NCBI GenBank assembly: GCA_024278215.1
Contig: JAJRTR010000202.1
Location: 1-49,604, forward strand
Source: a bacterium
GTDB taxonomy: Bacteria > UBP15 > UBA6099 > JAJRTR01
Direction: 5' to 3'
Length of the DNA stretch: 49,604 bases
Of this stretch, positions 626 to 30,478 are shown one piece after another. The translations under genes and the position numbers were made by a program. A model generated the notes under the pieces. The model ran no database searches, was not told where the DNA came from, and saw nothing but the letters and a program-made list of their open reading frames with translations. How positions within the stretch are numbered: the first letter of the stretch is position 1; every line of letters starts with the position of its first letter.

Positions 626-1295
626 TGACTGTATCGCCCCCGCGTTATCGAAACGCTCTTTATTGATTTATACGTAATGCACCTGAAAAAAATTCGAGAA
701 TACCGGATTGCTTATATTATAAATTCCCGATTGGCAACCGAATCGAGGAGTTTGTGTATTATATCACAAGAGAGGGTGTGTACGGCAAGAGCGGGGATAA
801 AACAGTAGCGCGACAGCGAGCCGATTGCAAATTCTGATTCTGTTGAGGTCGACCGCAATTGCCCGGAGCCGCATTGGCGGCACGAGGGAGCAGGCAGGAA
901 AAATGAGGCAAAAATGCGACAAAAGTGCGGCATTTATGCCACACCTGCACCTGTTTTCGGCCTGTTCGTCCCGGGCAGCCTGTTTTGCGAATTCAAAAAA
1001 CAGCTTTCTGTAAGGGGGAAATCGATATTTCGCGTAAATGTATAAAATCGCGAATTATGGCACAAATATTGCTGTGTATGGATGGTAAACGCCGACGCTT
1101 TCGGTTTTATGCGTTCCCAAGGTGGACTCTGGGAACGAGAACAAGATTCAGTGAAGAGCCCAAAAAGCATTTCAGTAACATTGCATGTGGATGGTGAAGA
1201 GCGAAAAGAATCTGGATTTTTCAAGATTCGTGTGCCGTGCTCAAACCGTTTTTGTTTGGGCACGAATAATTAAATCTGAAAACATGAGGGGACCG
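626..1295. other. Non-coding gap with degenerate repeat
   Basis: No convincing gene lies in these 670 bases. Short frames on both strands have non-protein-like composition. The right half contains an inverted, interrupted copy of repeat family A (about 1106-1270). An AT-rich stretch around 700-765 may contain promoters in either direction, but no -35/-10 pair close to consensus stands out. Confidence 0.6.
1106..1270 (-). repeat. Dispersed repeat family A, degenerate inverted copy 3
   Basis: On the minus strand, two blocks match copies 1 and 2. GCGTTCCCAAGGTGGACTC at about 1111-1129 corresponds to the GTTCC...GGTCTACC block. GTGCTCAAACCG followed by TTTGTTTGGGCACGA near 1237-1264 corresponds to the CGTGCCCAAACAAA block. 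About 90 unrelated bases separate the blocks here, whereas they are adjacent in the other copies. The hairpin arms here read GTTCCCA/TGGGAAC, against TTCCAA/TTGGAA in copy 1. Confidence 0.6.
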
Positions 1296-4200
1296 ATGAC
1301 AATGTCACAGAAACAATGTCACAGATTACTTTCATACTTTATGGTTGTGGCTGCGTTTTTCATTTTTTGCGCCGCGACGGCAGCAGCCGATGATGTGGAA
1401 TTCAACTTCTTTGTCCCACGCGCTCCTTACCCACCTGAAATAACATCGGTGAATAATTCGCAAGCGATACAGGGGTGGGAAAGTTTCACTGTTTACGCGA
1501 CTATCGAAACCCGGACACAATACGAACCATGCTGTGACGGTGTGTGCGAACATGCCTGTGCGCCGAACTGTGACTTTTCCGAGTGCGAAACGAATGATTT
1601 CTATGGCGAACCCGACCCGCGCATTGTTCCGAACCCGCCCTGCATACCCAATATAAACGACACTTCGGGCGGCGCAAACGCGGATGTTTGCGGCAACAAA
1701 CCCGGCAACCCGAAGCTGTTCTACTACTACAACGGAGACACTTCAAGAGGCGGAAGCGTCGATATGGTCTACGATCAGAATACAGGCCAATTCAAGGCGG
1801 AAGTGCCGATGTTGGGTTCTGCTCATGACACTGAAATAATATACTACATCATTGCGGCGGACAGCACGGGAAATGTGGTTTCTCAAGTACCCGATACGAA
1901 AACAGTTGCTATGGCAACAATCTCCAGTTGGTACCCGGATTACTCGACACCTGCACTGGACAACTGCACGGTCGCCAACAGCTACGAAAGATGCGGCCGG
2001 TATATAAGCGGAACACCGACATGCTTTTCTTCGGACTACACAGTGAATGACCCTGAAGACGACACATGCGATGTCGACGGCAACCCGACAGACGGTCTCG
2101 AGATTGACGACATACTCGGATTCTCGGTCAGTGCGGGAAAGGGCTTTTTCGATATGCCCTCCGATGACGTAGTTGCCGTACAGGTTCAACTCGGCGCGAA
2201 CCCACCTGATCCCGGCACAAACAGCGGATCGATCGAGGCATATATTATCTCATTTTACAATCCGGATATACCCGACGCGAATCCTTATGACGTGCATATG
2301 CAAAATTCTTTTATTGTCACTTACCTGCCCGAAGCAGCCGGTTGCGACCCCAATCTTATAAAAGTGCTCTGGGACGGCGAATGTGTCACCAATCCCAACA
2401 CCCCCGATTTTTTAGGATGCAAACTTATTGTCGGCAGCCTGAGCGAGACAACCCTTCGGACCGGCGCATCAGGCGGCAAGTTGAATGTCGTGGCGAAAAA
2501 CGCTCTGCCTAACGGAGATACGATTATAGGCGGCGCGTCGAAAGAAGTGTATGTTAATGTGCAGACCGGCGCTATAGACCTCGCCGGCAGTATACCCTTC
2601 TGGCTTGTGGACAGCAGCAATGCGATGAATTTGATGAGAGAAAACCAGACAATTCAAGGAGATATTTGTATATGTTATGACTTCCCGCCTATAGTTATGT
2701 CGCCTGCCGAATGCAGACATCCGGACGGCTCTTCTTTCCCGGACGGCATCTGCGCGCAGAGCGACTCGGAGCCGGAGTACAACGAATGCTATCTCACAAT
2801 CCATTCGGCTCCCGACGTGGGATTCGTCGACAAATACAACATATATCACACCACCATCGACGACCCCTACACCGCGACGCTGGTACACACGATAGATACG
2901 AACATCACTGGCACCAACTATTACACATACAGAGTGGGCGACGAAGACGACGAATCGCTGGACGGCAAAACCCATTACTTCTATCTTACCAGTGTATTCA
3001 AAAACGGCCCCTATGAAACAAGAATGTCGAATGCGGGGAGAACCTACTGCACCGTGGAAGACTGGGTGCCGTCTGCCGCGCCGACGGATATGTCGTGCGC
3101 CACGCCGTCCGGAAGCGAGGGCATCTGCGAATGCACATGGAAGATGAACACACTCGACGATCCGTCAGTTAACGGTTTTTTCATCAGCCGCGACCAGGTC
3201 AACATCAACGCCAGGCCACTTAGAGCAGTATCCAACCAGTCGAGCTACCAGTACAGCTACACGGACAAATCCGACTATCTCGAGACCGGCGGCGGCCCCT
3301 ACACCTACAGGGTGAAATCTCTCGATGCCGGCAGCAACCAGTCCGCGCCGGCACCCGACGGCGGCGACTCGGCCTATTGCACACCTGAAGATTTAAAAAA
3401 ACCCGCAAAAATCGACAGCATGAGTATTACCTATAAATCCGACATTTATGGCGTCGATCTTTCCTGGGAACCAGGTGCGGACGACGACATCGCCGGCTAC
3501 AATGTCTACAAGTGTGAGGTAACTACAAGCGAGTTGGTCGACTGCCAGACAAAAGACGATTACCTGACCGGCGGCTATAACGAAAAAATCAACACGAGCC
3601 TTATCGCTCCCAACGAGCCGTTACAGATTTCCACAGAGAACTTCCCGCAGTCGGATGCAACATTCTGCTTCTGGGTGGAAGCCTGCGACAACTGCGACAC
3701 AGCGGGGACATGCCCGAGCAACGGCGGCGAACCCAATTGCAGCAGCCACGATACATCCAAAGTCCACAGAAAATGTCTCGCACTGACGTTATCCGATACG
3801 TCGTCTCCGCCCGACCTGCCCGTGTCGGTAAGCGCGTCGCCACTTCCGGAAGGCGGCACGTGCAAAGTCTCTTTCAGCCGTGTGACAACCGACGACGAAG
3901 GCGAATTCGAAAATGCGAGCTACCCTATACCGACAGAACTAATGGGTTACTATCTAATGCGCACGGAAGCCATCGGCGACGACTGCACAACAACGCCACT
4001 GGGTAATCCCGGAGACCTCGGCGGTTCTGTAATAGCAAAAACCATTTCTGCCGCACAGCAACTCGAAGACACGCTCGACGCTACCGACGACAACGGCGGA
4101 ACCGGCCTCACAAACGGGACTATGTACTGCTACACCGTTTACTCCTTTGACGCCGCCGGAAGATTCAAGACCGACACATTGACATCCAGCCGGATAGGAG

Positions 4201-5693
4201 CATGCACACCCTCGGACACAGAGCCGCCGGGCAAGCCGGAGATGGAACCGATAACCTGCGACGACTACACCTTCACACTGGGCTGGATCGGCCAGACGGA
4301 CAAAGACACGCTTACATACAACTTATACAGATGCGGCGACACGCTCGACAACTGCACCGCGACAGACTCCTACTCTCTGCTGCCGGAAGGCGCGGGCATC
4401 ATCGACACTACACTTCAAGACTACAATGTCACAACCGGCGACAACTACACATACTGCGTAACAGCAATCGATGCGGCCGGAAACGAAAGCGCCGTATATG
4501 AAAGTTCCAGCTACGCAAACTGCAAATACAGCACTCCTTCGGACAGACCCGTGGCGCCTGACGCGACAACCGCCTGGCAGGTTTCCGTATCACCTAACTA
4601 CGGTGCGAAGGCCTGCTGGACGGATTCCATCGACTACGATGCCGGCGGGCAGGGCTACAACATCTATGCCTGCAAAACGGATTGCAACGGCAAGGACGCT
4701 TCCTCCTGCTGTGAACTCAAGGTCGAGACAGGCTACACCGGCAGCCATGCCTGTACAGACGGCAGCGAATGGATGAAAAACAGTATTCCAGTGATCGAAA
4801 CAACCGACTACTACATCGGTGTCACTTATGTCGACGACAACGGAATAGAATCGTTAGCGTCTCTAACGAGCAATACCGTTGATATTGCAACGCTGGACAA
4901 ATGTTTTATCAATCCCCTTGCCTGCAAGACCACTGTTTCACTTACAAATCCAGTAACAAAGATGCTTGTCGAACCCTGCACGGGAGCCGACATCGGCGAC
5001 GCGACCGCCTGCAAAGTCACCGGCGAAGCGGCGACCGGCGGCTCATGCAGGTCCAACGGCATAATGAGAAAATGCGACGTTCCCATTAGCGGCATAAAAG
5101 TGGAAATCGTGCCCGTAACCTCCAGCGGACCGGGCTCGACCGGCAGTGACTACGGCGCTCCCATCAAAACAGGAGTCACAAACGCCGGCGGCACAGTCGA
5201 ATTCCAAGTCAAAGACTCGTATATCCAGACCGGCACGGAGTATGTTATAAGATTGCGCATCGACAACTATGATCCCGCCATTGAAAATATGTGCGACAAC
5301 GACGCTGAAAGTGACGGTTTCTGCGGCATGGCCCTTACGGACCCGATGGAAATCGACACCTCCGCCGGTACTGTAACAATGGCGGGAACGCCGCCCACAC
5401 TGCCCCCGGACTCCAGCGACGGCGGCTTCACTGGCGACATCGGCAACTTCAATGGCGACGGCAAAGTTGATGCACTCGATCTTGCAAAGATGAAACCCAC
5501 ATGGGGAAAGGTCAACGGTGCCCCATGCTACCGAACATGGGCCGATGTCAACTTGGACGGAAACATCAACGCACTTGATCTCGCAATCATGAAAAAATAC
5601 TGGGGGAAAGTAGTGGATAAATCCAAAATAAACAGGAACGCGCCCGGCGCGATGGTAGCCGAAGACGGCTGGCCGCCACCCGAGTGCAAGTGA
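1296..5693 (+). CDS. Secreted cysteine-rich FN3-like multidomain protein with C-terminal type I dockerin
   Basis: About 1465 residues. The frame is open from 1185, but the ATG at 1296 (with ATG 1302 as alternative) follows GAGGGG at 1286-1291 and starts directly at a signal peptide (hydrophobic core VVAAFFIFCAATAAA). An N-terminal Ig-like module carries the YYIIAADSTGNV signature. A beta-rich module follows, then about six fibronectin-III-like repeats (motifs such as DLSWEPGADDDIAGYNVYKC and TYNLYRC). Next is a Big/carboxypeptidase-regulatory-like domain. A dockerin begins near residue 1380 with two calcium loops: NFNGDGKVDALDLAKMK and DVNLDGNINALDLAIMKKY. Dockerins bind cohesins in cellulosome-like assemblies (family knowledge); no cohesin is in the window. 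Cys content is strikingly high for FN3 domains, with clusters such as CCDGVCEHACAPNC. The most likely role is an extracellular structural or binding protein. It ends in TGA. Confidence 0.9.
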   Translation: MTMSQKQCHRLLSYFMVVAAFFIFCAATAAADDVEFNFFVPRAPYPPEITSVNNSQAIQGWESFTVYATIETRTQYEPCCDGVCEHACAPNCDFSECETNDFYGEPDPRIVPNPPCIPNINDTSGGANADVCGNKPGNPKLFYYYNGDTSRGGSVDMVYDQNTGQFKAEVPMLGSAHDTEIIYYIIAADSTGNVVSQVPDTKTVAMATISSWYPDYSTPALDNCTVANSYERCGRYISGTPTCFSSDYTVNDPEDDTCDVDGNPTDGLEIDDILGFSVSAGKGFFDMPSDDVVAVQVQLGANPPDPGTNSGSIEAYIISFYNPDIPDANPYDVHMQNSFIVTYLPEAAGCDPNLIKVLWDGECVTNPNTPDFLGCKLIVGSLSETTLRTGASGGKLNVVAKNALPNGDTIIGGASKEVYVNVQTGAIDLAGSIPFWLVDSSNAMNLMRENQTIQGDICICYDFPPIVMSPAECRHPDGSSFPDGICAQSDSEPEYNECYLTIHSAPDVGFVDKYNIYHTTIDDPYTATLVHTIDTNITGTNYYTYRVGDEDDESLDGKTHYFYLTSVFKNGPYETRMSNAGRTYCTVEDWVPSAAPTDMSCATPSGSEGICECTWKMNTLDDPSVNGFFISRDQVNINARPLRAVSNQSSYQYSYTDKSDYLETGGGPYTYRVKSLDAGSNQSAPAPDGGDSAYCTPEDLKKPAKIDSMSITYKSDIYGVDLSWEPGADDDIAGYNVYKCEVTTSELVDCQTKDDYLTGGYNEKINTSLIAPNEPLQISTENFPQSDATFCFWVEACDNCDTAGTCPSNGGEPNCSSHDTSKVHRKCLALTLSDTSSPPDLPVSVSASPLPEGGTCKVSFSRVTTDDEGEFENASYPIPTELMGYYLMRTEAIGDDCTTTPLGNPGDLGGSVIAKTISAAQQLEDTLDATDDNGGTGLTNGTMYCYTVYSFDAAGRFKTDTLTSSRIGACTPSDTEPPGKPEMEPITCDDYTFTLGWIGQTDKDTLTYNLYRCGDTLDNCTATDSYSLLPEGAGIIDTTLQDYNVTTGDNYTYCVTAIDAAGNESAVYESSSYANCKYSTPSDRPVAPDATTAWQVSVSPNYGAKACWTDSIDYDAGGQGYNIYACKTDCNGKDASSCCELKVETGYTGSHACTDGSEWMKNSIPVIETTDYYIGVTYVDDNGIESLASLTSNTVDIATLDKCFINPLACKTTVSLTNPVTKMLVEPCTGADIGDATACKVTGEAATGGSCRSNGIMRKCDVPISGIKVEIVPVTSSGPGSTGSDYGAPIKTGVTNAGGTVEFQVKDSYIQTGTEYVIRLRIDNYDPAIENMCDNDAESDGFCGMALTDPMEIDTSAGTVTMAGTPPTLPPDSSDGGFTGDIGNFNGDGKVDALDLAKMKPTWGKVNGAPCYRTWADVNLDGNINALDLAIMKKYWGKVVDKSKINRNAPGAMVAEDGWPPPECK

Positions 5694-10500: not shown

Positions 10501-12018
10501 TTGGATAGACTGCTCAAAACAGAAAGTGTCGTGGGTGTGGACGTAGCGCCCGACTATATTCGAGCGACGGAGATCGAGCGGGTCGGCGAAGACTACTATC
10601 TGCGCAACATCGGCCTGAAGGCGACCCCCGAAGGAGCGGTGGTCGATGGACTGATCGTCGACACCGCGGCGGTTGCGAAAGCGCTCAGATCATTGTTCCG
10701 CGAGCGCCGATTCGAGTCGAACCGGGTGGTGGCGGCTGTTCGGGGCAAGGGTGTAGTGAGCCGGATCATCACCCTGCCTTCGATGCCCCAGGACCGCCTC
10801 AGCAAGCTCATCGAAAACGAAGTCAACCGCTACGTCATATTCAGCGAACAGGACAAAGTAGTTTTCTATTATCCACTCGAAGAATTCGACGAATACGACC
10901 GCCGCAAAGTCAACGTGCTGCTTGTGGTAGCGCAAAAAAATATTTGTAATTCCTTCAACGAGGCTTTCAAACAGGCAAAACTCGAGCTGGTAGCTCTTGA
11001 TTTCAGCATTTTCTCGATTCTGCGCGAGCTCCGCAACAGCACACAGCACCTGTCGCAAGGCAACACGATGACCGTGATCTTCGACCATCACGGCGCTTCG
11101 CTCAACATCTTCCATCGCGACATCATGCGCTATACGAGAACCATCAAGTTCGATCCTGAACGGTTCACGTCGGCAAGCAACGGTTTCCTTGACAGGATTA
11201 TCGCCGAAACACTGCTTTCTATGCAGTATTACCAATCCGAATCAATAGGTCACGAACCCATATCGCGAGTTGTGCTGAGCCTTGGCGGCACGGGCAGCAC
11301 AGAAGCGTATAATGCAATCCAGGAATCCATCGACGACATCCCCGTCGAAGCACACGCGCCGTTCTCGAACATAAAAGTCAACATGGACGATTTCCCGCCC
11401 GACATTATGGAACAGGTGGACACAAGTTTTATCACCTCCATCGGGTTGTCTCTAAGGGGCCAGGAACTCTATTTCCTCCCCTTCCAGGTCGACCTCATGC
11501 CCGCGGAGATCGCAGAAGGCAAAAATCTCAGACAACACATAAAATGGCTCGCTGTGATCCTCGGCATCATTTTATTGGGATTCATGATTCCGGGCGAATT
11601 CATCCTGCCCGCGCAGGAAAGAGCCGCAGTAAACGAGCAAACCACCCTGAAAATGGACCTACAGGGCAACGAAGCAAAGCTTACAAAACTGAAAAAACAG
11701 CAGGAAACCGCCATGCGGCTCAACCCTCTTGCTATCAACGTGCCGCTCACCGACAACTGGTCTCCCATGCTCGAAAGCATAAAACAGGTGATTCCCAAAA
11801 ACGTGCAGCTTACCAGCCTTTCGATGGAACCGCCCAACAGCATCGAGTTCATGGGCATCGCCGACTCGAACCCGTCGATATTCTATTTTGTTTCTTCGCT
11901 GCGGAATTCGCCGAACTTTGCAGATGTCGAACTTGGCCCGCGCAACGCCGTGCCCGTCTACGACAAGCCAATGGTCAATTTCGTGATACACTGCAAATAT
12001 ACCGGGTCAATGGAATAA
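10501..12018 (+). CDS. pilM: PilM-PilN fusion, type IV pilus/type II secretion inner-membrane assembly protein
   Basis: 505 residues from a TTG start four bases after AGAGGA. Residues 1-330 are PilM-like (actin fold): SVVGVDVAPDYIRATEIE at the N-terminus, a PilM-type midsection, and the adenosine-side loop VVLSLGGTGSTEAY. Near residue 320 the PilM-docking motif that normally begins PilN appears as FQVDLMPAEI. A transmembrane helix follows (WLAVILGIILLGFMIPGEFIL), then a coiled coil (about 380-405) and a ferredoxin-like periplasmic domain as in PilN. Separate PilM and PilN normally meet through exactly this peptide, so one chain carrying both is coherent. The phosphate-binding loops look degraded: VAPD replaces the usual IGSS, and FDHHGA stands where DIG is expected. 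PilO-like and PilP-like genes follow at 9 and 3 bases. Confidence 0.85.
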   Translation: MDRLLKTESVVGVDVAPDYIRATEIERVGEDYYLRNIGLKATPEGAVVDGLIVDTAAVAKALRSLFRERRFESNRVVAAVRGKGVVSRIITLPSMPQDRLSKLIENEVNRYVIFSEQDKVVFYYPLEEFDEYDRRKVNVLLVVAQKNICNSFNEAFKQAKLELVALDFSIFSILRELRNSTQHLSQGNTMTVIFDHHGASLNIFHRDIMRYTRTIKFDPERFTSASNGFLDRIIAETLLSMQYYQSESIGHEPISRVVLSLGGTGSTEAYNAIQESIDDIPVEAHAPFSNIKVNMDDFPPDIMEQVDTSFITSIGLSLRGQELYFLPFQVDLMPAEIAEGKNLRQHIKWLAVILGIILLGFMIPGEFILPAQERAAVNEQTTLKMDLQGNEAKLTKLKKQQETAMRLNPLAINVPLTDNWSPMLESIKQVIPKNVQLTSLSMEPPNSIEFMGIADSNPSIFYFVSSLRNSPNFADVELGPRNAVPVYDKPMVNFVIHCKYTGSME

Positions 12019-12027
12019 GGAACAGAA

Positions 12028-12621
12028 ATGATCGCGCTCTACTCGAAAATGACTATGCCCCAGCGGATCATCGCCGCCGTGCTGATCATAGCCGTTGCAG
12101 CAGCAAGCCTCTTTTTCCTTTATCTCGATCCGAAAACAAAAAATGTCCATGCGCTCAAACAAAAAAATGAAAAAACATCAAAACTGATACGCCTCCAGGA
12201 GGCGCAACTGGCAAGAATCAAAAACCCGGGTAAAATAAACGAATTCCTGCCTCCCGAAAAGCTCGAAACCCTTGCTTCTTTCGACAACAAAACCCTCTAT
12301 TCGTCGGAAATACCGGTTCTCATCGAACTGCTCGAGCAGGTTGTCGAGAAATCCGGTGGAAAAAATATCAGGATAGAAGAAGGCGAATCGTCGCCCGTAT
12401 ACATAAAAATGGGCAGACGAAACCAGATCTATGAAATGAAAGCCCTGCCGCTTCTGGTGGTTTTTGACGCTTCTTACGCTTCTGCATCCAACTTCCTTTT
12501 CCAGATCAAGGCGATGCGCAGAATGCTCAAGCTGACAAAAGTCGAATTGCGGTCGGAAGACCTCACGGGTAAAATTAAAGTGATGGCGGATTTTCAATTG
12601 TATTTTGCCGAGGAGCAATAA
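12028..12621 (+). CDS. pilO: PilO-like inner-membrane assembly protein
   Basis: 197 residues with the PilO/GspM layout. A short cytoplasmic N-terminus is followed by one membrane helix (IIAAVLIIAVAAASLFFLYL), a coiled coil rich in Lys/Glu/Gln (about 45-70) and a periplasmic alpha/beta domain. In the family, PilO pairs with PilN in the periplasm and scaffolds the alignment complex between the inner-membrane motor and the outer-membrane secretin. Sequence similarity among PilO proteins is low, so the name rests mainly on topology and on its position between PilMN and the PilP/GspC-like gene. The start follows GGAAC close to the pilM stop. Confidence 0.75.
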   Translation: MIALYSKMTMPQRIIAAVLIIAVAAASLFFLYLDPKTKNVHALKQKNEKTSKLIRLQEAQLARIKNPGKINEFLPPEKLETLASFDNKTLYSSEIPVLIELLEQVVEKSGGKNIRIEEGESSPVYIKMGRRNQIYEMKALPLLVVFDASYASASNFLFQIKAMRRMLKLTKVELRSEDLTGKIKVMADFQLYFAEEQ

Positions 12622-12624
12622 GAC

Positions 12625-13497
12625 GTGGGAATAAGCAGAAATTCATGGATTATCGCTATAATACTGATCGTGATGATACTAATAGCATGGTCTACCGACC
12701 CACGTCGCAACAAAATGAAATCCGGCGCAATGAGACCCCCGCCTAATCCGCTCATGCAACAGTTCGCCGCCGCTCCACAGGAACAACAACCCAACAACGC
12801 CGGACAACAGGCTTCCGGGCAGCAGAAAAATCGCAAAAAGACAAACAGCAGGTCACGCCGCCGGCAGGGCGCTTATGACGCAGCCGGATTCTCCGACTTC
12901 GAACTCCTCAACGACAGGTATGGCCGTAGTGATCCCTTCGCGCCTTTCTACGATATTCCGGAACCCGATGAGACGCTTCTCGATATACCCGCCATCGAGC
13001 CGCTGCCGCCCATGATACTCGAGAGCCCCGCCAATATGAAGCTTACCGCCGTTTCAATACAGGACGACGGTACAGGCATGGCCATCATCAACGGTGAAAT
13101 CGTTCGCGTCGGCGACTACGTACTCGGCTTCAGAGTTCACTACATCTCGCAAAACCGCGTCGAACTCATCAACGAACTCGGCGACAAAGCCATTCTCCGC
13201 ATCAAACAGGCTGTTCCCACAGGCTACGAAGTTACTCGCGGCGAGATCAGCAACATCCAGAAAGTGCCGGAAAAACAACCCCAGCGAACTGTCATACCCA
13301 CAAGACAACAATCGCCACTTCCGCTACCGCCGTCGAACTGGACAAACCTTCGCCCCGACGAACTTCCATCAGCACCGTCCACAAGACAGCACAAAAAAAC
13401 AAAACCGAATATCAGCATCACTCCGGACCCGCAGCAGGAAGCGCTCGACGAGATCCGGAAAATACTCTCCAATCCCGAAAATCTGCCTCTGAACTGA
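12625..13497 (+). CDS. PilP/GspC-like pilot of the alignment complex
   Basis: 290 residues from a GTG start nine bases after AGGAG. An N-terminal membrane helix (WIIAIILIVMILIAWS) replaces the lipoprotein signal usual for PilP and is more like GspC of type II secretion. A disordered Pro/Gln/Asn-rich linker spans about 30-85, and then comes RSDPFAPFYDIPEP, the PilP-type DPF motif. A small beta domain (about 130-195, LTAVSIQDDGTGMAIINGEI then VGDYVLGFRVHYI) corresponds to the HR/PilP fold that contacts the secretin N-domains. A second Pro/Gln-rich tail ends the protein. No secretin gene follows here, so the outer-membrane partner must be elsewhere. Confidence 0.75.
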   Translation: MGISRNSWIIAIILIVMILIAWSTDPRRNKMKSGAMRPPPNPLMQQFAAAPQEQQPNNAGQQASGQQKNRKKTNSRSRRRQGAYDAAGFSDFELLNDRYGRSDPFAPFYDIPEPDETLLDIPAIEPLPPMILESPANMKLTAVSIQDDGTGMAIINGEIVRVGDYVLGFRVHYISQNRVELINELGDKAILRIKQAVPTGYEVTRGEISNIQKVPEKQPQRTVIPTRQQSPLPLPPSNWTNLRPDELPSAPSTRQHKKTKPNISITPDPQQEALDEIRKILSNPENLPLN

Positions 13498-22977: not shown

Positions 22978-23292
22978 ATGGAAATACCTTATGTACTAAA
23001 AGCATTTCTTCAAAAAACGGAAATCCCTGAACAAGTGCGTCCCGCCCGGTCGAAACAGGTTGCCGACGCTTATGCGTCTGGAACTGGAACTGTGCAAGAC
23101 AAAAGGGACGAAGTCAAGATATCCTCGGAATCCAGGCTCCTGCAGAAACTGCAAGTGGACTACAAAAAACTGGAAAGTGTAAAAAACAGCACATTCGAAA
23201 CCAGAGTTGACACGGAAAATCTATCGCTGAGTATGTCGGCGGAAGACATTGTGGAAGGAATCCTGAAAGGCACACTGTTCGAAGTTATTTAA
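22978..23292 (+). CDS. flgM: FlgM-like anti-sigma-28 factor
   Basis: 104 residues from ATG 22978, ten bases after AGGGGG; an upstream in-frame TTG at 22957 precedes the ribosome site. Residues 50-104 fit the FlgM pattern: VKISSESRLLQKLQ, a spacer with R near TFETRVDT, then LSMSAEDIVEGILKGTLFE, the C-terminal helices that grip sigma-28. The N-terminal half is Lys/Gln/Arg-rich and probably disordered, as in FlgM. Sequence alone would be moderate evidence; the perfect sigma-28 promoter just upstream makes the autoregulatory flgM identity strong. In the known circuit FlgM holds FliA inactive until it is exported through the completed hook. No other flagellar gene is in the window. Confidence 0.8.
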   Translation: MEIPYVLKAFLQKTEIPEQVRPARSKQVADAYASGTGTVQDKRDEVKISSESRLLQKLQVDYKKLESVKNSTFETRVDTENLSLSMSAEDIVEGILKGTLFEVI

Positions 23293-23726: not shown

Positions 23727-23756
23727 AAAAAAGCCGGCTCGTGGCCGGCTTTTTTT
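23727..23756. terminator. Bidirectional rho-independent terminator
   Basis: Six As and GCCGGC (23727-23738), loop TCGTG, then GCCGGC and seven Ts (23744-23756). The A and T runs make it work on both strands: for the flgM-like transcript from the left, and for the 1899-residue gene from the right, whose stop is 26 bases away. Confidence 0.93.
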
Positions 23757-23781: not shown

Positions 23782-26700
23782 TCATTGATCCGGTTCCGGC
23801 AGCGTATTCGCTGTAACACACACAAAGTTACTGATGTGTCCGTAATGATTGATGTAGAACGAGTTATCCACGGTCCTGATGCAGATTGCATATTCAGTGT
23901 CGGGCGAAAGGCCTGTCACATCCGCGCTGGTTGCGGAAGCGCCGTAAATGCCGGCAATATGTGTCGGCGGTGTCTGGTCGTCGGGCATCTGCGATTCGAC
24001 ATAGATAATATACTCGCCACCGGCGGGTGGAACTTCGGGATATGACAACGCCTGTCCGGATGAGGCCGGCGGGCAATTCACAGGTTGCGTCCACGACAGT
24101 GTTGCCGAATAGATATCCGGTGTAGCGGTGACATTCTGCGGGACCGGCGGGCGCTTGAAATATTTCCATGTATCGGAATATATCCATGTGAATCCGCAGT
24201 CTCCACTCGCGTCTGCGATGCTTGCTCCTACTCGCCAGTAGTAGACTACTCCGTTTGTCATCGGTATGTAATCCGTCGTATCTGCCTGGTAGCCGTTATA
24301 AAGTCCTGTTGAAGTTTTCAGGAACAATGATGGGTCGCTCGTGTCGGCGCTCATGATAAGGTTTCTGAAATCAGCCGTATCGGATACATCAATCTTGTAA
24401 CATGATAACCCGAAGGCATCCGGTATGGGACTCCAGTAGAAAGCCTGGTTGAGACAGTCCACGATTGTGCATTGTGTCTGTATGGTGTCTGGGTCGTTAT
24501 ATGGATCGCAAACATCGCTGTTGTCCGGTGGCGAAGCAAGCACAACAGGTGGTATAAGCACTGTGAACTGGTTTATGGACGACCACGGGCCGGGGTATCC
24601 GGTTCCGGACTGTGTGCTTTCGCCCGAGGCGTCTCTTGCTCTGACACGCCATGTGAAGACATCGCCGTTGACAACGGACGGTGTGGACATATCACAGAAT
24701 GTATAATTCGTCGGTGTGAAAGGCGGATCGGGCGGGTTGCCGGGGTCGTAGGTAAACTGCGGTGTGCAGAGGAACGGCAGGCCATTCTTGAGAATTTCAA
24801 CATCGTAACTTTCTGCACCGATTATGCCCGGTATTTCCCTGACAACATCATTCTGATCGGTATATGTGCCGCCGTTCCAGTCAAAGTGCAGACATAGCGT
24901 CGAGGACTGGCTATCGCAATTGGTAACGAGCAACACCTGCTGGCCGTCGAGCGGTGAGATCAGGTCGGGTGCCGGAAGCCCTGTAATAAATGTTTTCGCA
25001 TTATCCGCATCATAGGGAGATTCTCCGGCTGTAATGTTCCATCTGAATTTGCGACCGGCTGAGAACGGTATCACGTCGCTGCTGCCGAAACCGCAGTTTG
25101 CATTCACATCGAACTGGCCGGCGGACATCTCGCCTTCATATATCACGACGATATTCGGGTCGTCCGGGTTGGATGCGTCGTCGGACGCCTCTATGTCCTC
25201 TATCCTTATCGAATAAGAGTCTGCTCCTATATCGCTCCACCTGAATGTTATCGCGTAGTTGTATGTCGGATTTCCGTAGAAGTCCTGTGTCAGCGCACAT
25301 GACACGTCAGGTCCTATAATCTGGCCGTCCGCGGGGATAATCAGTTGCGGCGCTTCTCCGAATACTTTATAGAATAATTCGCGGTTGACATTTTCCCAGC
25401 TTCCGGATGTCGCTCCGTTTGAATCATAAGCACGGATTTCCCAGTAATATGAGCCGTCGATGGAGCATGTCGCGTCGTTTGAAATGTCACACCTGTCCAG
25501 ATCGGATGAATTATAGGAATAGGAAGTTGTTGTTCCCCCTGTGACATCGGTCTGGAAAACAATAGGCAGTGAACGGCAGTCTGTGCCGCTGCCGACCCGT
25601 TTGCATATCCTCAGCGTATAACCCGCCGCGCCCGGTGTTTCCGTCCACTGGAATAAAATAGTGTCCGTGACAATCTGTTCGGGTGGCGGACTTTTCGGAC
25701 TGACAGTCAGCGGCGGCTTGAGGTTTTTGTAGAACTGTGACGGGTTGGAACACTGCGGAATCGTGTAACGATCATTCATCGAGCACACTCTCCACTGGTA
25801 CTGGGTTCCCGAAATATCCGGGTCCGATGGATTCACCAGCGGGCTTTCCGCGGTACCGTCCTGGTTGAATGTCACCGTGTAGACTCCGCTGCCGGATGTC
25901 GAGAGAGAATATGACCACAGCAGGTCGGTCGAATTACTGAATGTGTTCGGTTTTTTCACCATCTGCACGAGATATTGCGTGGCGCCGTCTTCCCGAAGGA
26001 ATGTGAGTTCCGGCTCGGGAACATATATCACCTGGTCATAAACGGGGGTGATGAGGGTCGGCCCCTTGAGCAGCAGAACAACTTCCAGGGTATCCGACTT
26101 GTCGCTCACCCTGTCTTCAGAAGTGGAACTGTTCGGGTCGCCCTTGTCCACCGCCTGTATATTGTAGTAATATGTGCTGCCGCGTTCGAGATTGGTGTCT
26201 TCGAAACAGACGACTTTTGTCTTTGTGCCGCAGGCCACATTGTCCGCTGTAGATACGAATGAGCTGCATATTCCGGACGTATCCTGACAGCGGTAAATGC
26301 GGTACTCATCGACATTATCCGCCGTGGGTTTTTCCCAGTAAAGTGTAATCGAGTTGTTCGAAGTGCCGGTTTCATAGGGGTCGGATTGCTGCCCGGAACA
26401 ATATGTACCGCCGCAGAAATAAGGTTTGTCCGGCCTGTTAGTAGCCTCGACTTTTGTGAATCTGTACGTCTGGCTGTCCTCGGATTGCTTGAGGTCGTTG
26501 AACGCCTTGACCGTCCACCTGTAGCTCTTGCCTTCCTCCAGAGCCGGCGCGGATGAAGTGTCATATTGCTTCGACGTGCCGCTTATTGTCGGCTGCCAGA
26601 TTATTATATCCTGTGCGTCGTCATACAATGAAAGTATATACTGCACACTCGGCCCGTTTATCGGGAACCACTGGAACAGCGGTTCCTTTTCCGAAACATT

Positions 26701-29481
26701 CTCGGCGGTGACGTTGCCCGGCCCGATAAGTTCCGGGCGCTGCAATTCGAGTGTGATCGACTGCAACACGCTCTTGTCGCCCGCCACGTCGCCGGTTTTC
26801 ACCGCGGCGACTTTGTAGTAATACTTCGTTCCGTTATCCACACTGATGTCGCAATAGCCGGGGTTGTTCTGCGTGAACGATATCGGGCAGTCCGGGTCGG
26901 GCATGGGACCGCCGAGTTGCGTTTTGTATACTATATCTATAGGGCTGCTGGAGTCGAGTTGTGTCGGGTCCTCGGTCCTGTAGATCGCGTAGCCTGTGAC
27001 GATGGTGTCTTCGATGCGCACCCAGTTGAGAGACACAAGCTGGTCGCCGCCGATCAGCGGCACCTTGCCCGTGCCCGATGCCCATTGCGGGATCGGCAGT
27101 TCCGCCACGCCCGGTGTTACTTTTGTAAATTTGAAACTCTCGCCTATCGCTGTGTCGCCGCAATCGTTTCTCGCTGTGACATACCAGAGATATTCGACAT
27201 CGTCTGTAAGGTCCACGCTGCTCAGGCTGGTTGTAGTACCCGTCTCTGTTTTCTGGTACACCAGTTGTGAACTCTCGTTGTAGACTGAAACGTCGTAATA
27301 CGTCGCACCGTCCACTGTCGTCCACACGAGCGTGGGATTATCCGTAGTTTCCGTGCCGTTATTCGGCAGCAGGTTTGTCGGGCCCGATGTCAGCACGACA
27401 CATCCGCTTTCCCCATTGTAAACAAAGGTAAAGGGCAAAGCCTCCACCGTCGATCCCGAGTTCTGGTAACCTTTTACACTCCACCTGTAAGTTTTCCCGC
27501 TGTCGAGGTCGCTCCCACCATAAGTAACACTGTAATTCTTTCTTACGGGCGGATCGGTGTCGGAACCTTCTCCCGATATATTGCCGCTGTCGTATATCAC
27601 ATTTCCTGTTTCGACATCCGTTACCTGGAGAATATAGAAGTCCATATCGCCCGCGCCGATGAACTGGAATTCAGGCGTCGAGTTTGTTGTTGTCGTTCCA
27701 TCTTCCGGATATATCAGCGTAATGGTATGCTCCTGGCAATCTTTCGGATCGGAGGAAGGGGTCGTGCATTTTATCTCGGATTTGCTCGCGTCCTGTTCAG
27801 TGTTTGAACTCATGCCCGAAACGGCGTAGCATACTTCCACACCGTTGGAGACACCGGTTATCGTGGTCGAAGTTTCGGATGTACTGTATATTGTTTCAAC
27901 CGGTGTCGCCCCGCAACTCGTTTCCGTCTTTCCCGGACAACTGAATACCTGATAGCCGATATTGTTTGTATCACTTACCTTGATCCAGCTTAATTTTACA
28001 GTCTGATTATCACACGAGATGTAAGTGGTCGGAGCAGATATGGGATCGATCCGCTTGTCGATAACGACAAGATAGGGCGTGAAGTGCGACACCGGGCAGG
28101 TTACCCCGTACTTGTCGCCGAAGTAACTTATTTTCTGGTAAGTCGCGCTTATCAATTCCCAGCCGCCGGCATCCGTGCATGTGCCGCATTTCAGATCGTT
28201 GAGATCATTGCTCGTATAGCCGTTTGTCTGACCCAGATAATCTTCTATTTCAAATGATATGTAATAGCTGACTTCAGGCGGAAAATCCGGTGACTTGGGA
28301 CTTGTCTGGAGTGAAAAGTTGAATGCCGTGTCCGGCAATTCATCTATCGACGAATTCGATTGGTAGCATTCCATTAATGAAGACAGCGCCGCCGGGTCTA
28401 TTTTTATCGGTTTTGCCGGAATGTAATCGGGATCGAAGTTTGTCGGGGAATATACAGCAGACATATTGGCACCAACCACAACCGTTCCGGTCGATGGGGT
28501 AGGCGTAACCGTGGTCGTATCATTCGGCCTCAAGTTATCCATTGTAGTTTGATTTTCAGCTTTATTGCCGCCCCTTGATACCGCGGCTATCACGCCGACT
28601 GCAAGAACACCCAGAAGCAATGGATTGAGCTTCTTCTTCTTCGGCACACGCTTTGTAGTGCCTTCCGTGCGCTCGAGCACGACCGGCGTGTACACCAGCC
28701 TCACCTTATCACCTACAGAAACGGTTGTCCCCGTCTGTTGCCCGATGATATTGGCCCTCGAGTGGGCAATTGTGACTTCTTCGACTTCCAGAGACGCGAT
28801 CTGTGTATTTGTGCCTCGCTTCAATACCGCGAGTTCCGCTCCTTTGCGCACATTGTCGCGGTCCGCCAGGCTACAGAGGATGTCGTTCCCTTTTACGAGT
28901 GTCACAACTCCGAATGTCGTCAGATTTTCAAATATATATCCGGCGGCATTGCTGACACCGTCGCGGATGGCGAGTTCGGCGAGTTCGGCAAGCGATCCCG
29001 AGAACCCGAGACGGGTACTCCTGCCCTGGACGACTGCCTCGCTCATAAGACTGCCGTCGTCGACTTCGTACATCGACAGCCCCACTTCGATCACCGCCTG
29101 CTCGGTGCCGTCAAACTCCAGGTTTGACACGAAACCCACCAGCACCGCACTTGCACCAAGCGCGCGGCCTACTGAAATCGCCACGTCCGGATTCGGCTTA
29201 AGGTCTCCCATCGCCGCCATTACATCATCCTGCGGGAGGAGCTTCACCCCTTCAATACCACTGATATGAGCAAGCAGTAAGTTGACACCATAATCTTCTT
29301 CAAGCAATTCGTACTTGGTAAGATTCTCGATGCCTATGGCGGCAAGTGTGATGTCGAGCGGCTTCTGCCTGGCCTCCGCTACCCGTGGACTGTTGACGAT
29401 TGTCATCGTCATTGTAAATGTTACTATTAAGAATGCGGCAAACGCGCGTATGCCTCTCATCCCTAAAATCCGACCGAACAT
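23782..29481 (-). CDS. Giant exported CsgG/FlgT_C-like plus FN3-repeat protein
   Basis: 1899 residues. The ATG lies six bases after GGAGG. A signal peptide (about 8-37, FAAFLIVTFTMTMTIV) precedes a CsgG-like alpha/beta domain (about 42-185, LDITLAAIGIENLTKYELLE, then ALGASAVLVGFVSNLE). A small beta domain follows (about 192-272, FGVVTLVKGNDILCSL, RKGAELAVLKRG, VSVGDKVRLVY) that resembles FlgT_C. KRVPKKKKLNP and a hydrophobic segment LLLGVLAVGVIAAVS (about 297-311) follow. From about 380 to the end are roughly twelve fibronectin-III-like repeats with signatures such as ELTFLREDGATQYLVQMV and VSLNWVRIEDTIVTGYAIYR. CsgG-type domains sit in periplasm or outer membrane in known systems. How a mid-chain hydrophobic segment is placed is unclear. 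Probably a cell-surface or envelope structural protein. Confidence 0.88.
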   Translation of the reverse strand: MFGRILGMRGIRAFAAFLIVTFTMTMTIVNSPRVAEARQKPLDITLAAIGIENLTKYELLEEDYGVNLLLAHISGIEGVKLLPQDDVMAAMGDLKPNPDVAISVGRALGASAVLVGFVSNLEFDGTEQAVIEVGLSMYEVDDGSLMSEAVVQGRSTRLGFSGSLAELAELAIRDGVSNAAGYIFENLTTFGVVTLVKGNDILCSLADRDNVRKGAELAVLKRGTNTQIASLEVEEVTIAHSRANIIGQQTGTTVSVGDKVRLVYTPVVLERTEGTTKRVPKKKKLNPLLLGVLAVGVIAAVSRGGNKAENQTTMDNLRPNDTTTVTPTPSTGTVVVGANMSAVYSPTNFDPDYIPAKPIKIDPAALSSLMECYQSNSSIDELPDTAFNFSLQTSPKSPDFPPEVSYYISFEIEDYLGQTNGYTSNDLNDLKCGTCTDAGGWELISATYQKISYFGDKYGVTCPVSHFTPYLVVIDKRIDPISAPTTYISCDNQTVKLSWIKVSDTNNIGYQVFSCPGKTETSCGATPVETIYSTSETSTTITGVSNGVEVCYAVSGMSSNTEQDASKSEIKCTTPSSDPKDCQEHTITLIYPEDGTTTTNSTPEFQFIGAGDMDFYILQVTDVETGNVIYDSGNISGEGSDTDPPVRKNYSVTYGGSDLDSGKTYRWSVKGYQNSGSTVEALPFTFVYNGESGCVVLTSGPTNLLPNNGTETTDNPTLVWTTVDGATYYDVSVYNESSQLVYQKTETGTTTSLSSVDLTDDVEYLWYVTARNDCGDTAIGESFKFTKVTPGVAELPIPQWASGTGKVPLIGGDQLVSLNWVRIEDTIVTGYAIYRTEDPTQLDSSSPIDIVYKTQLGGPMPDPDCPISFTQNNPGYCDISVDNGTKYYYKVAAVKTGDVAGDKSVLQSITLELQRPELIGPGNVTAENVSEKEPLFQWFPINGPSVQYILSLYDDAQDIIIWQPTISGTSKQYDTSSAPALEEGKSYRWTVKAFNDLKQSEDSQTYRFTKVEATNRPDKPYFCGGTYCSGQQSDPYETGTSNNSITLYWEKPTADNVDEYRIYRCQDTSGICSSFVSTADNVACGTKTKVVCFEDTNLERGSTYYYNIQAVDKGDPNSSTSEDRVSDKSDTLEVVLLLKGPTLITPVYDQVIYVPEPELTFLREDGATQYLVQMVKKPNTFSNSTDLLWSYSLSTSGSGVYTVTFNQDGTAESPLVNPSDPDISGTQYQWRVCSMNDRYTIPQCSNPSQFYKNLKPPLTVSPKSPPPEQIVTDTILFQWTETPGAAGYTLRICKRVGSGTDCRSLPIVFQTDVTGGTTTSYSYNSSDLDRCDISNDATCSIDGSYYWEIRAYDSNGATSGSWENVNRELFYKVFGEAPQLIIPADGQIIGPDVSCALTQDFYGNPTYNYAITFRWSDIGADSYSIRIEDIEASDDASNPDDPNIVVIYEGEMSAGQFDVNANCGFGSSDVIPFSAGRKFRWNITAGESPYDADNAKTFITGLPAPDLISPLDGQQVLLVTNCDSQSSTLCLHFDWNGGTYTDQNDVVREIPGIIGAESYDVEILKNGLPFLCTPQFTYDPGNPPDPPFTPTNYTFCDMSTPSVVNGDVFTWRVRARDASGESTQSGTGYPGPWSSINQFTVLIPPVVLASPPDNSDVCDPYNDPDTIQTQCTIVDCLNQAFYWSPIPDAFGLSCYKIDVSDTADFRNLIMSADTSDPSLFLKTSTGLYNGYQADTTDYIPMTNGVVYYWRVGASIADASGDCGFTWIYSDTWKYFKRPPVPQNVTATPDIYSATLSWTQPVNCPPASSGQALSYPEVPPAGGEYIIYVESQMPDDQTPPTHIAGIYGASATSADVTGLSPDTEYAICIRTVDNSFYINHYGHISNFVCVTANTLPEPDQ

Positions 29482-29665: not shown

Positions 29666-30478
29666 TCATATTCCCGGAGGCTGAAGTCTTACCAGCCAGA
29701 ACGGGATGTCTTCCCTCAGGTGATACCGGCAAAATCTTACCAGCACTTTCGCAAGCTCTCGCGTTTCATATCTTCTGCCTGCCTGCCGTTCTGCGGCAAA
29801 CCATCCGGAGCTTATTCCTTCAGCTTCTTCCATTGTTTCTATCTGTGATCCCTCGAGGATGTCGCATAAGCTTTTCACTCGTTCACTGTATTGAACCACA
29901 CCCGGACTCAACCTGCTCATCGTCTCTCCATTTTGCGGTGTGCAGTTCGGACAGTAGACGGCGCCTTCTGCAATATCGAGCAGGAAATCACCATCCCCAC
30001 TTTCAGCGCCGCACTCCGCGCAGACATCCAAAACAGGCAATATCCCGGCAACCTTAAGAAACTGCCATTCAAACAGCGTTTTAATTATATCATGATGATT
30101 GTTAACTTGTAAAAGAAAATGTATATTTTTTATTATATTGTAGAGGTGAATTTCACTGCTGCGGGAGGGAAGCAGGGTAAGAACGAATCTCGACATGTAT
30201 CCGATCAGGGCTATCGCGTCAGGGTCCTGCCTGAGACGGTTGAATTCCACCAGCGGTGCCCACTCCGTCAGGAGATCGACAGTTCGCCTTTCCGCAATAA
30301 AAAAAAGACCTTCATGCAGAAAGTCAAGCGCGGGTCTGAGCGAACTCGCGACTTTTTTCGTGCCCCGCACTGCTACTCTGAATTTGCCTTCCTCCTCCGA
30401 GAAGAGTGTAAGTTGAACTTCGTTTTCTCTCGTGTCGATACAATCTATCGGGATAGCTTTTACGCGGTACGTTCCCAT
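29666..30478 (-). CDS. recO: DNA repair protein RecO
   Basis: 270 residues. An N-terminal OB fold (about 1-80, YRVKAIPIDCIDTRENEVQL, RGTKKVASSLRPALDFL) is followed by a helical domain and a zinc finger with CAEC and CPNC (about 157-190). The C-terminal helical region ends with FCRYHLREDIPFW. RecO loads RecA onto SSB-coated single-stranded DNA with RecR in gap repair. There is no clear ribosome site before the ATG; it lies 155 bases after the TPR gene and is probably co-transcribed with it. Confidence 0.93.
   Translation of the reverse strand: MGTYRVKAIPIDCIDTRENEVQLTLFSEEEGKFRVAVRGTKKVASSLRPALDFLHEGLFFIAERRTVDLLTEWAPLVEFNRLRQDPDAIALIGYMSRFVLTLLPSRSSEIHLYNIIKNIHFLLQVNNHHDIIKTLFEWQFLKVAGILPVLDVCAECGAESGDGDFLLDIAEGAVYCPNCTPQNGETMSRLSPGVVQYSERVKSLCDILEGSQIETMEEAEGISSGWFAAERQAGRRYETRELAKVLVRFCRYHLREDIPFWLVRLQPPGI

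Follow-up and report, generated by a model that had tools for sequence, protein, structure and literature searches.

A FlgT-like head with a giant FN3 tail: the UBP15 form of an undescribed, probable envelope protein family

What kind of protein is encoded when a head recalling CsgG and FlgT is followed by a long chain of FN3-like repeats, and on which side of which membrane would that chain lie? The question is raised by a gene in a contig of a UBP15 bacterium (JAJRTR010000202.1; the window is the whole stretch analysed, 49,604 nucleotides). An earlier sequence-only reading had described its product as a CsgG/FlgT_C-like head joined to about twelve FN3-like repeats, possibly an envelope anchor displaying a surface fibre, and had pointed to CsgG pores, flagellar rings and a flgM-like neighbour. 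The literature searched describes no CsgG or FlgT head joined to an FN3 array. The answer developed here is that the 1899-residue protein is best read as a giant UBP15 version, expanded in its FN3 repeats, of an undescribed envelope family built from known parts.

The gene and its conservation in UBP15

The frame is uninterrupted over 1899 residues and has exactly the extent first noted. It starts at an ATG with GGAGG 5' of it and is preceded in this genome by an rpoA-truA-TPR-recO stretch; a scan for sigma-70 promoters at the gene gave matches no better than chance level. The proposed signal peptide is confirmed (h-region, residues 10-32), with A37 and Q38 at least 90% conserved among 22 distant family members, and the proposed KKKK and hydrophobic segment were both found, at residues 281-284 and about 285-304, the latter ending in SRGG (Table 1).

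Table 1. Positions of the gene, its parts and its neighbours in the window, and of one distant relative
Feature	Position	Strand	Evidence or remark
Whole gene, 1899 aa	23782..29481	-	ORF; kept in 5 relatives
Intrinsic terminator 3' of gene	23727..23755	-	strong hairpin, 12-pair stem and T run
recO, adjoining the gene upstream (context only)	29666..30478	-	same position in all five relatives
Signal peptide, residues 1-37, AEA/RQ, no lipobox cysteine	29371..29481	-	sequence
CsgG/TolB-N/LpoB/PelC-type domain, residues ~40-185	28927..29364	-	hhalign to FlgT; LpoB and PelC by profile; PelC by Foldseek on low-confidence model; secondary structure order
FlgT_C-like (TsaP-like) beta domain, residues ~189-265	28687..28917	-	hhalign; TsaP by profile
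KKKK, short hydrophobic helix and RGG, residues 280-304	28570..28644	-	K/R bias before helix, 52/53 members
d0, Cys-containing domain without assignment, residues 335-479, end HFTPYLVV	28045..28479	-	kept in relatives; unlike every FN3 repeat
12 FN3-like repeats in two classes, residues 480-1899, with most of 40 post-helix cysteines	23785..28044	-	Pfam, motif, profile comparison
Small convergent gene, called flgM-like	22978..23292	+	ATG at 22978; TIGR03824 FlgM 13.7 bits vs cut-off 40.75
3275-aa relative in G168	L123 7724-17548; also L124		group of only three genomes

Of the seven genomes in the order, six carry the gene, although in one of the six (G005) it is spread over two contigs. Because five relatives retain the whole architecture (48-51% identity over the full length) with dN/dS values over the whole chain of 0.07 and 0.10 (two comparisons in the sister genus), the arrangement is more than chance, and judging from this divergence the gene is under purifying selection in UBP15 relatives and kept at full length. 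A search for the same architecture, suggested with the sequence-only reading, thus found it in five UBP15 relatives, and two other groups hold it as well. In all six UBP15 genomes recO lies directly upstream, and the remaining surroundings vary; a few genes upstream of it the relatives encode FapA and a FliA-like sigma factor, and downstream a DUF4175 protein. Omp85 was found in all seven carriers tested and FlgH in six of the seven UBP15 genomes, so the carriers are diderm and have an outer membrane.

A head related to FlgT domains M and C

The identity of the head depends on the depth of the profile used. With the target protein alone, Pfam and NCBIfam are empty for the head: CsgG (PF03783) has no match, and in the genome only FlgT matches it; FlgT_C (PF16538) has no match at E<=10, although the genuine FlgT encoded in this genome exceeds its cut-off. 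As a profile, the six UBP15 heads alone retrieved only FlgT_C, plus chance PDB entries, and in hhalign they matched the C domain of the FlgT found in their own lineage at about 90% (E about 1e-6). A deep profile of 22 members was required to recover both head domains. It aligns to the same-lineage FlgT at 98.65% (hhalign, E 4.9e-16) over 227 columns with both domains collinear, and the alignment starts at FlgT profile column 181: the FlgT N domain is absent, and the CsgG-fold domain comes directly after the signal peptide. The same profile matches solved structures, with LpoB (E 4.7e-5) and PelC (5t11, E 8.5e-4) hit by the first domain and TsaP (3jc8, E 1e-4) by the second. Individual members also match Pfam models: LpoB in 5 of the 22 (best 3.4e-8), TolB_N in three, CsgG in two (best 5.9e-7) and FlgT_C in two.

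Structure prediction by segments added to this within limits. AlphaFold2, given only 5-6 close homologues, returned models with pLDDT 40 and 41; that of residues 1-720 was poor (mean pLDDT 40), with a strand order at 44-185 corresponding to the CsgG-type fold. Foldseek with these low-confidence models retrieved PelC and, for the tail, FN3 tandems; given the pLDDT values, its matches serve to supplement the sequence results, and the coordinates were not interpreted.

Taken together, the 22-member profile, the solved relatives and the individual Pfam matches argue that the head is the FlgT M+C module and not a CsgG pore, its two domains being recovered by profile comparison as one unit rather than as two unrelated modules. 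The CsgG-like and FlgT_C-like assignments of the sequence-only reading therefore stand by profile-profile and PDB-profile comparison and fail by plain Pfam on the target; that reading had named lack of HMM support as grounds for abandoning them, and such support is indeed lacking with plain HMMs, whereas the deeper profile supports both. LpoB, PelC and TsaP are all periplasmic proteins, and PelC and TsaP form rings.

Tails and relatives in two further groups

Behind the helix, the tail opens with d0, a conserved domain that has a CxxC and that we take to recall ZU5-like autoprocessing domains. The repeats that follow match Pfam fn3 (PF00041; E 7.4e-15, 55.4 bits vs a cut-off of 25) in four significant stretches. 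An F-strand motif occurs 12 times, at residues 550, 665, 764, 887, 987, 1104, 1228, 1345, 1479, 1609, 1747 and 1864, with a spacing of about 100-130 residues; a thirteenth match to the pattern, at 1824, falls within the last repeat. By hhalign the repeats fall into two classes, one of d1, d4 and d6 (mutual probability 92-95%) and one of d2, d3, d5 and d7-d10, which are linked to one another at up to 97%; d11 and d12 show weaker similarity. Twelve motif recurrences and two profile classes bear out the earlier count of "about twelve". Cysteine makes up 2.51% of the residues behind the helix, vs 0.96% in neighbouring minus-strand ORFs; the head has a single cysteine (C203), with none near the signal peptide, and 37 of 41 are invariant. 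This enrichment and invariance fit an oxidising compartment, and suggest that the FN3 tail carries disulfides and is exported.

The family extends beyond UBP15. A profile of the six UBP15 heads picked up two remote ones outside the phylum, in G158 (6.3e-11) and G297 (1.1e-8); these share one second phylum, presumably Armatimonadota, and rerunning the phylum search from G297 found nothing further. A seven-head profile, which includes two second-phylum members, themselves first found by UBP15 heads alone, matches 228 of 251 genomes there (169 of 179 among the better ones), mostly in single copy. The second-phylum form is compact, a protein of 600-790 aa, with open frames mostly of 600-850 residues, and every member examined has a signal peptide, head, basic stretch, hydrophobic helix, Gly-rich turn and tail. 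The compact tail has about 330 conserved columns, and the FN3-like part at its C-terminus can be aligned to d2, d3, d5, d7, d8 and d11 of the UBP15 array (57-91%); as only these align, the first FN3-like region of such tails was not demonstrated to be homologous to the class A repeats. Some cultured species seem to carry the compact form. A third group (G168, and G021, where the gene is cut by the contig end) has a form of 3275 residues with the same head and helix. The tail of the G168 protein holds 7 significant Big_1 and 4 Invasin_D3 stretches, TIG and one FN3, and coaE lies just upstream. Across three diderm groups, then, the head-helix part is constant in sequence comparison and the passenger changes; this constant order of head, helix and tail with differing tails fits an anchor with an exchangeable passenger.

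The neighbourhood of the gene in UBP15 is unlike that in the second phylum. In most of the 19 loci there with the gene, it is flanked by a protein of 1800-2100 residues on one side and subtilase/FlgD_ig proteins on the other, or comes immediately ahead of such subtilase/FlgD_ig proteins, and in many of these loci coaE and ribosomal protein S1 lie upstream. Large proteins ending in FlgD_ig, one of them a subtilase, thus flank the compact gene, and a Big_1 protein is close by. The cluster as a whole (L084-L103) comprises ribosomal protein S1, coaE, the 1800-2100 aa protein (in L088 containing PD40, CarboxypepD_reg and FlgD_ig), the compact member, an S8 subtilase and other FlgD_ig-ending proteins, and the FlgD_ig tails resemble a common sorting or attachment signal.

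Topology and possible roles

With a probability of about one half, the 1899-residue protein is a periplasmic, possibly ring-forming anchor whose tail lies outside the cell. Sec would export the protein, and signal peptidase I would release it, as the conserved AxA/Q site suggests. The head (FlgT domains M and C) would then fold in the periplasm and probably oligomerise on the periplasmic side of the outer membrane, by analogy with the ring-formers FlgT, PelC and TsaP; the short helix with its basic N-flank would be a membrane element, and the FN3 chain, probably rich in disulfides, would extend outside the cell as a fibre with an adhesive or structural role. Surface display is favoured, as the best reading of the sequences, by the invasin-type tails, the Cys-rich tail, the FlgD_ig neighbours and the diderm carriers. 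An envelope anchor with a surface fibre, as first proposed, remains the best reading, strengthened by the layout kept in three diderm groups, and its surface location is presumed. Against display, a strongly hydrophobic helix after a cleaved signal peptide should stop in the inner membrane.

A stop-transfer helix after a cleaved signal peptide leaves the tail in the cytoplasm and, under the positive-inside rule, has its basic residues on the tail side. Here the 25 residues before the helix contain more K/R than the 25 after it in 52 of 53 members, and the reverse holds in none. The basic N-flank thus contradicts a normal inner-membrane stop-transfer anchor, because the positive-inside rule predicts the opposite bias; this conflict is the most interesting fact about the protein. 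To our knowledge, single alpha-helices spanning the outer membrane are almost unknown. The nearest precedent for outer-membrane helices is Wza, an oligomeric helical barrel through that membrane (PMC9601211). Wza resembles the model in having alpha-helices that cross the outer membrane beside a periplasmic ring, a comparison of layout rather than of sequence; its helix is C-terminal, whereas in the target an array comes after the helix. The more specific proposal of a FlgT-like periplasmic ring with one outer-membrane-crossing helix per subunit and an exchangeable Ig/FN3 fibre outside, with no beta-barrel, is accordingly offered as tentative and rather less probable than the anchor in general.

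Three other placements of the tail or the head have to be weighed against the anchor with an external tail. The protein could be a periplasmic tether, with head and tail both staying in the periplasm, the helix anchoring from the periplasmic side or packing in the core of an oligomer, and the FN3 chain spanning or organising the envelope. This is possible, though clearly the less probable reading: the relatives of the head are periplasmic, the protein encodes neither a beta-barrel nor a known outer-membrane exporter, and presence in 228 of 251 genomes of one phylum suits a housekeeping envelope role, but a 12-domain array of 1400 residues is far longer than the periplasm is wide, and the tail types include invasin-like Big_1 arrays typical of surface proteins. 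A role as assembly or secretion platform, in which a head ring would form a periplasmic collar aiding export or attachment of the FlgD_ig neighbours and the tail would be a docking arm, draws on the embedding of the second-phylum gene among these large proteins in most sampled loci and on the resemblance of the head to PelC, a collar on an export barrel; such partners do not adjoin the gene in UBP15, and we consider this role unlikely. Less likely still is an ordinary single-pass inner-membrane protein with a periplasmic head, a stop-transfer helix and a cytoplasmic FN3 tail. It is the default reading for a signal peptide followed by a hydrophobic helix, yet it runs against the charge bias described above, the 37 invariant cysteines and the surface-type repeats.

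The flagellar and pore roles raised by the sequence-only reading are both very improbable. A flagellar ring component, that is, a FlgT paralogue with a tail, would account for a head homologous to FlgT M+C and for the FliA-like sigma factor and FapA near the gene in relatives. But flagellin was found in 69 of 121 second-phylum genomes, and all 20 listed flagellin-negative ones retain the family gene, while the target genome has its own, genuine FlgT in a separate gene (L015 3376-4725, minus strand) that matches both the FlgT_C and the CsgG models. This persistence without flagellin and the separate FlgT make a flagellar role unlikely, and the flagellar part was rejected; FlgT_N is also absent from the target. 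Each of the seven genomes in the order has a FlgT counterpart, which makes it probable that UBP15 does build a FlgT-type flagellar ring. As for the flgM-like convergent neighbour, a gene is present there, but its FlgM match is far below the cut-off and the linkage is not conserved. CsgG itself is a nonameric pore to which each subunit contributes two membrane beta-hairpins. The target shares with it the general fold of the first head domain, which is what speaks for a CsgG-type secretion pore; it has no lipobox, no CsgG HMM match and no evidence of a beta-barrel, and in its CsgG-like part of about 145 residues no space was seen for membrane hairpins. The pore was rejected on the absence of lipobox and model match.

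FlgT, both the Vibrio H-ring protein (3W1E) and that of the same genome, shares the collinear CsgG-fold and FlgT_C module; the target differs in lacking the N domain, in continuing into a hydrophobic helix and then a long tail of Ig/FN3 type, and in not being tied to flagella. TsaP, the LysM-containing collar of the type IV pilus secretin, shares the FlgT_C-like domain; the target lacks LysM and has in addition the CsgG-fold domain, the helix and the tail. PelC and LpoB, periplasmic CsgG-fold lipoproteins of which PelC is a dodecameric ring, resemble the first head domain, but they are short lipoproteins, whereas the target has a signal peptidase I site, a second domain and a tail. PelC offers the precedent of a CsgG-fold collar at the outer membrane (PMC12141448). 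In function the protein would most resemble, by analogy, an inverse autotransporter minus its beta-barrel. Intimin, invasin and YeeJ have the same order of periplasmic N-terminal anchor, membrane element and Ig-like array (in the target, an array that is presumably exposed), and the G168 member shares Big_1/Invasin_D3 repeats with them. In YeeJ, LysM binds peptidoglycan and the passenger is surface-exposed (PMC5595812). The target has a single hydrophobic helix where these proteins have a barrel: LysM was not found in it, and Pfam outer-membrane beta-barrel domains were found neither in it nor in the G168 form.

The family gene, present in nearly all sampled genomes of one phylum and common to UBP15 and a third group, encodes a head with no Pfam family. 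It indicates that the FlgT M+C module, otherwise a part of collars in flagella and pili, is also used independently of flagella, at the base of long Ig/FN3 proteins. A sharp question is how the tail gets out when the signal peptide is cleaved and the hydrophobic helix has its charges on the "wrong" side; if the helix does carry the tail across the outer membrane, this would be a display route that needs no barrel.

Elsewhere in the window, positions 1185-5693 (plus strand) encode a 1502-aa protein with a C-terminal type I dockerin domain (E 3e-12), and positions 10501-13497 (plus strand) contain a PilM-like gene and, after it, two genes resembling those that occupy the PilN/PilO or GspC place in assembly clusters for type IV pili or type II secretion.
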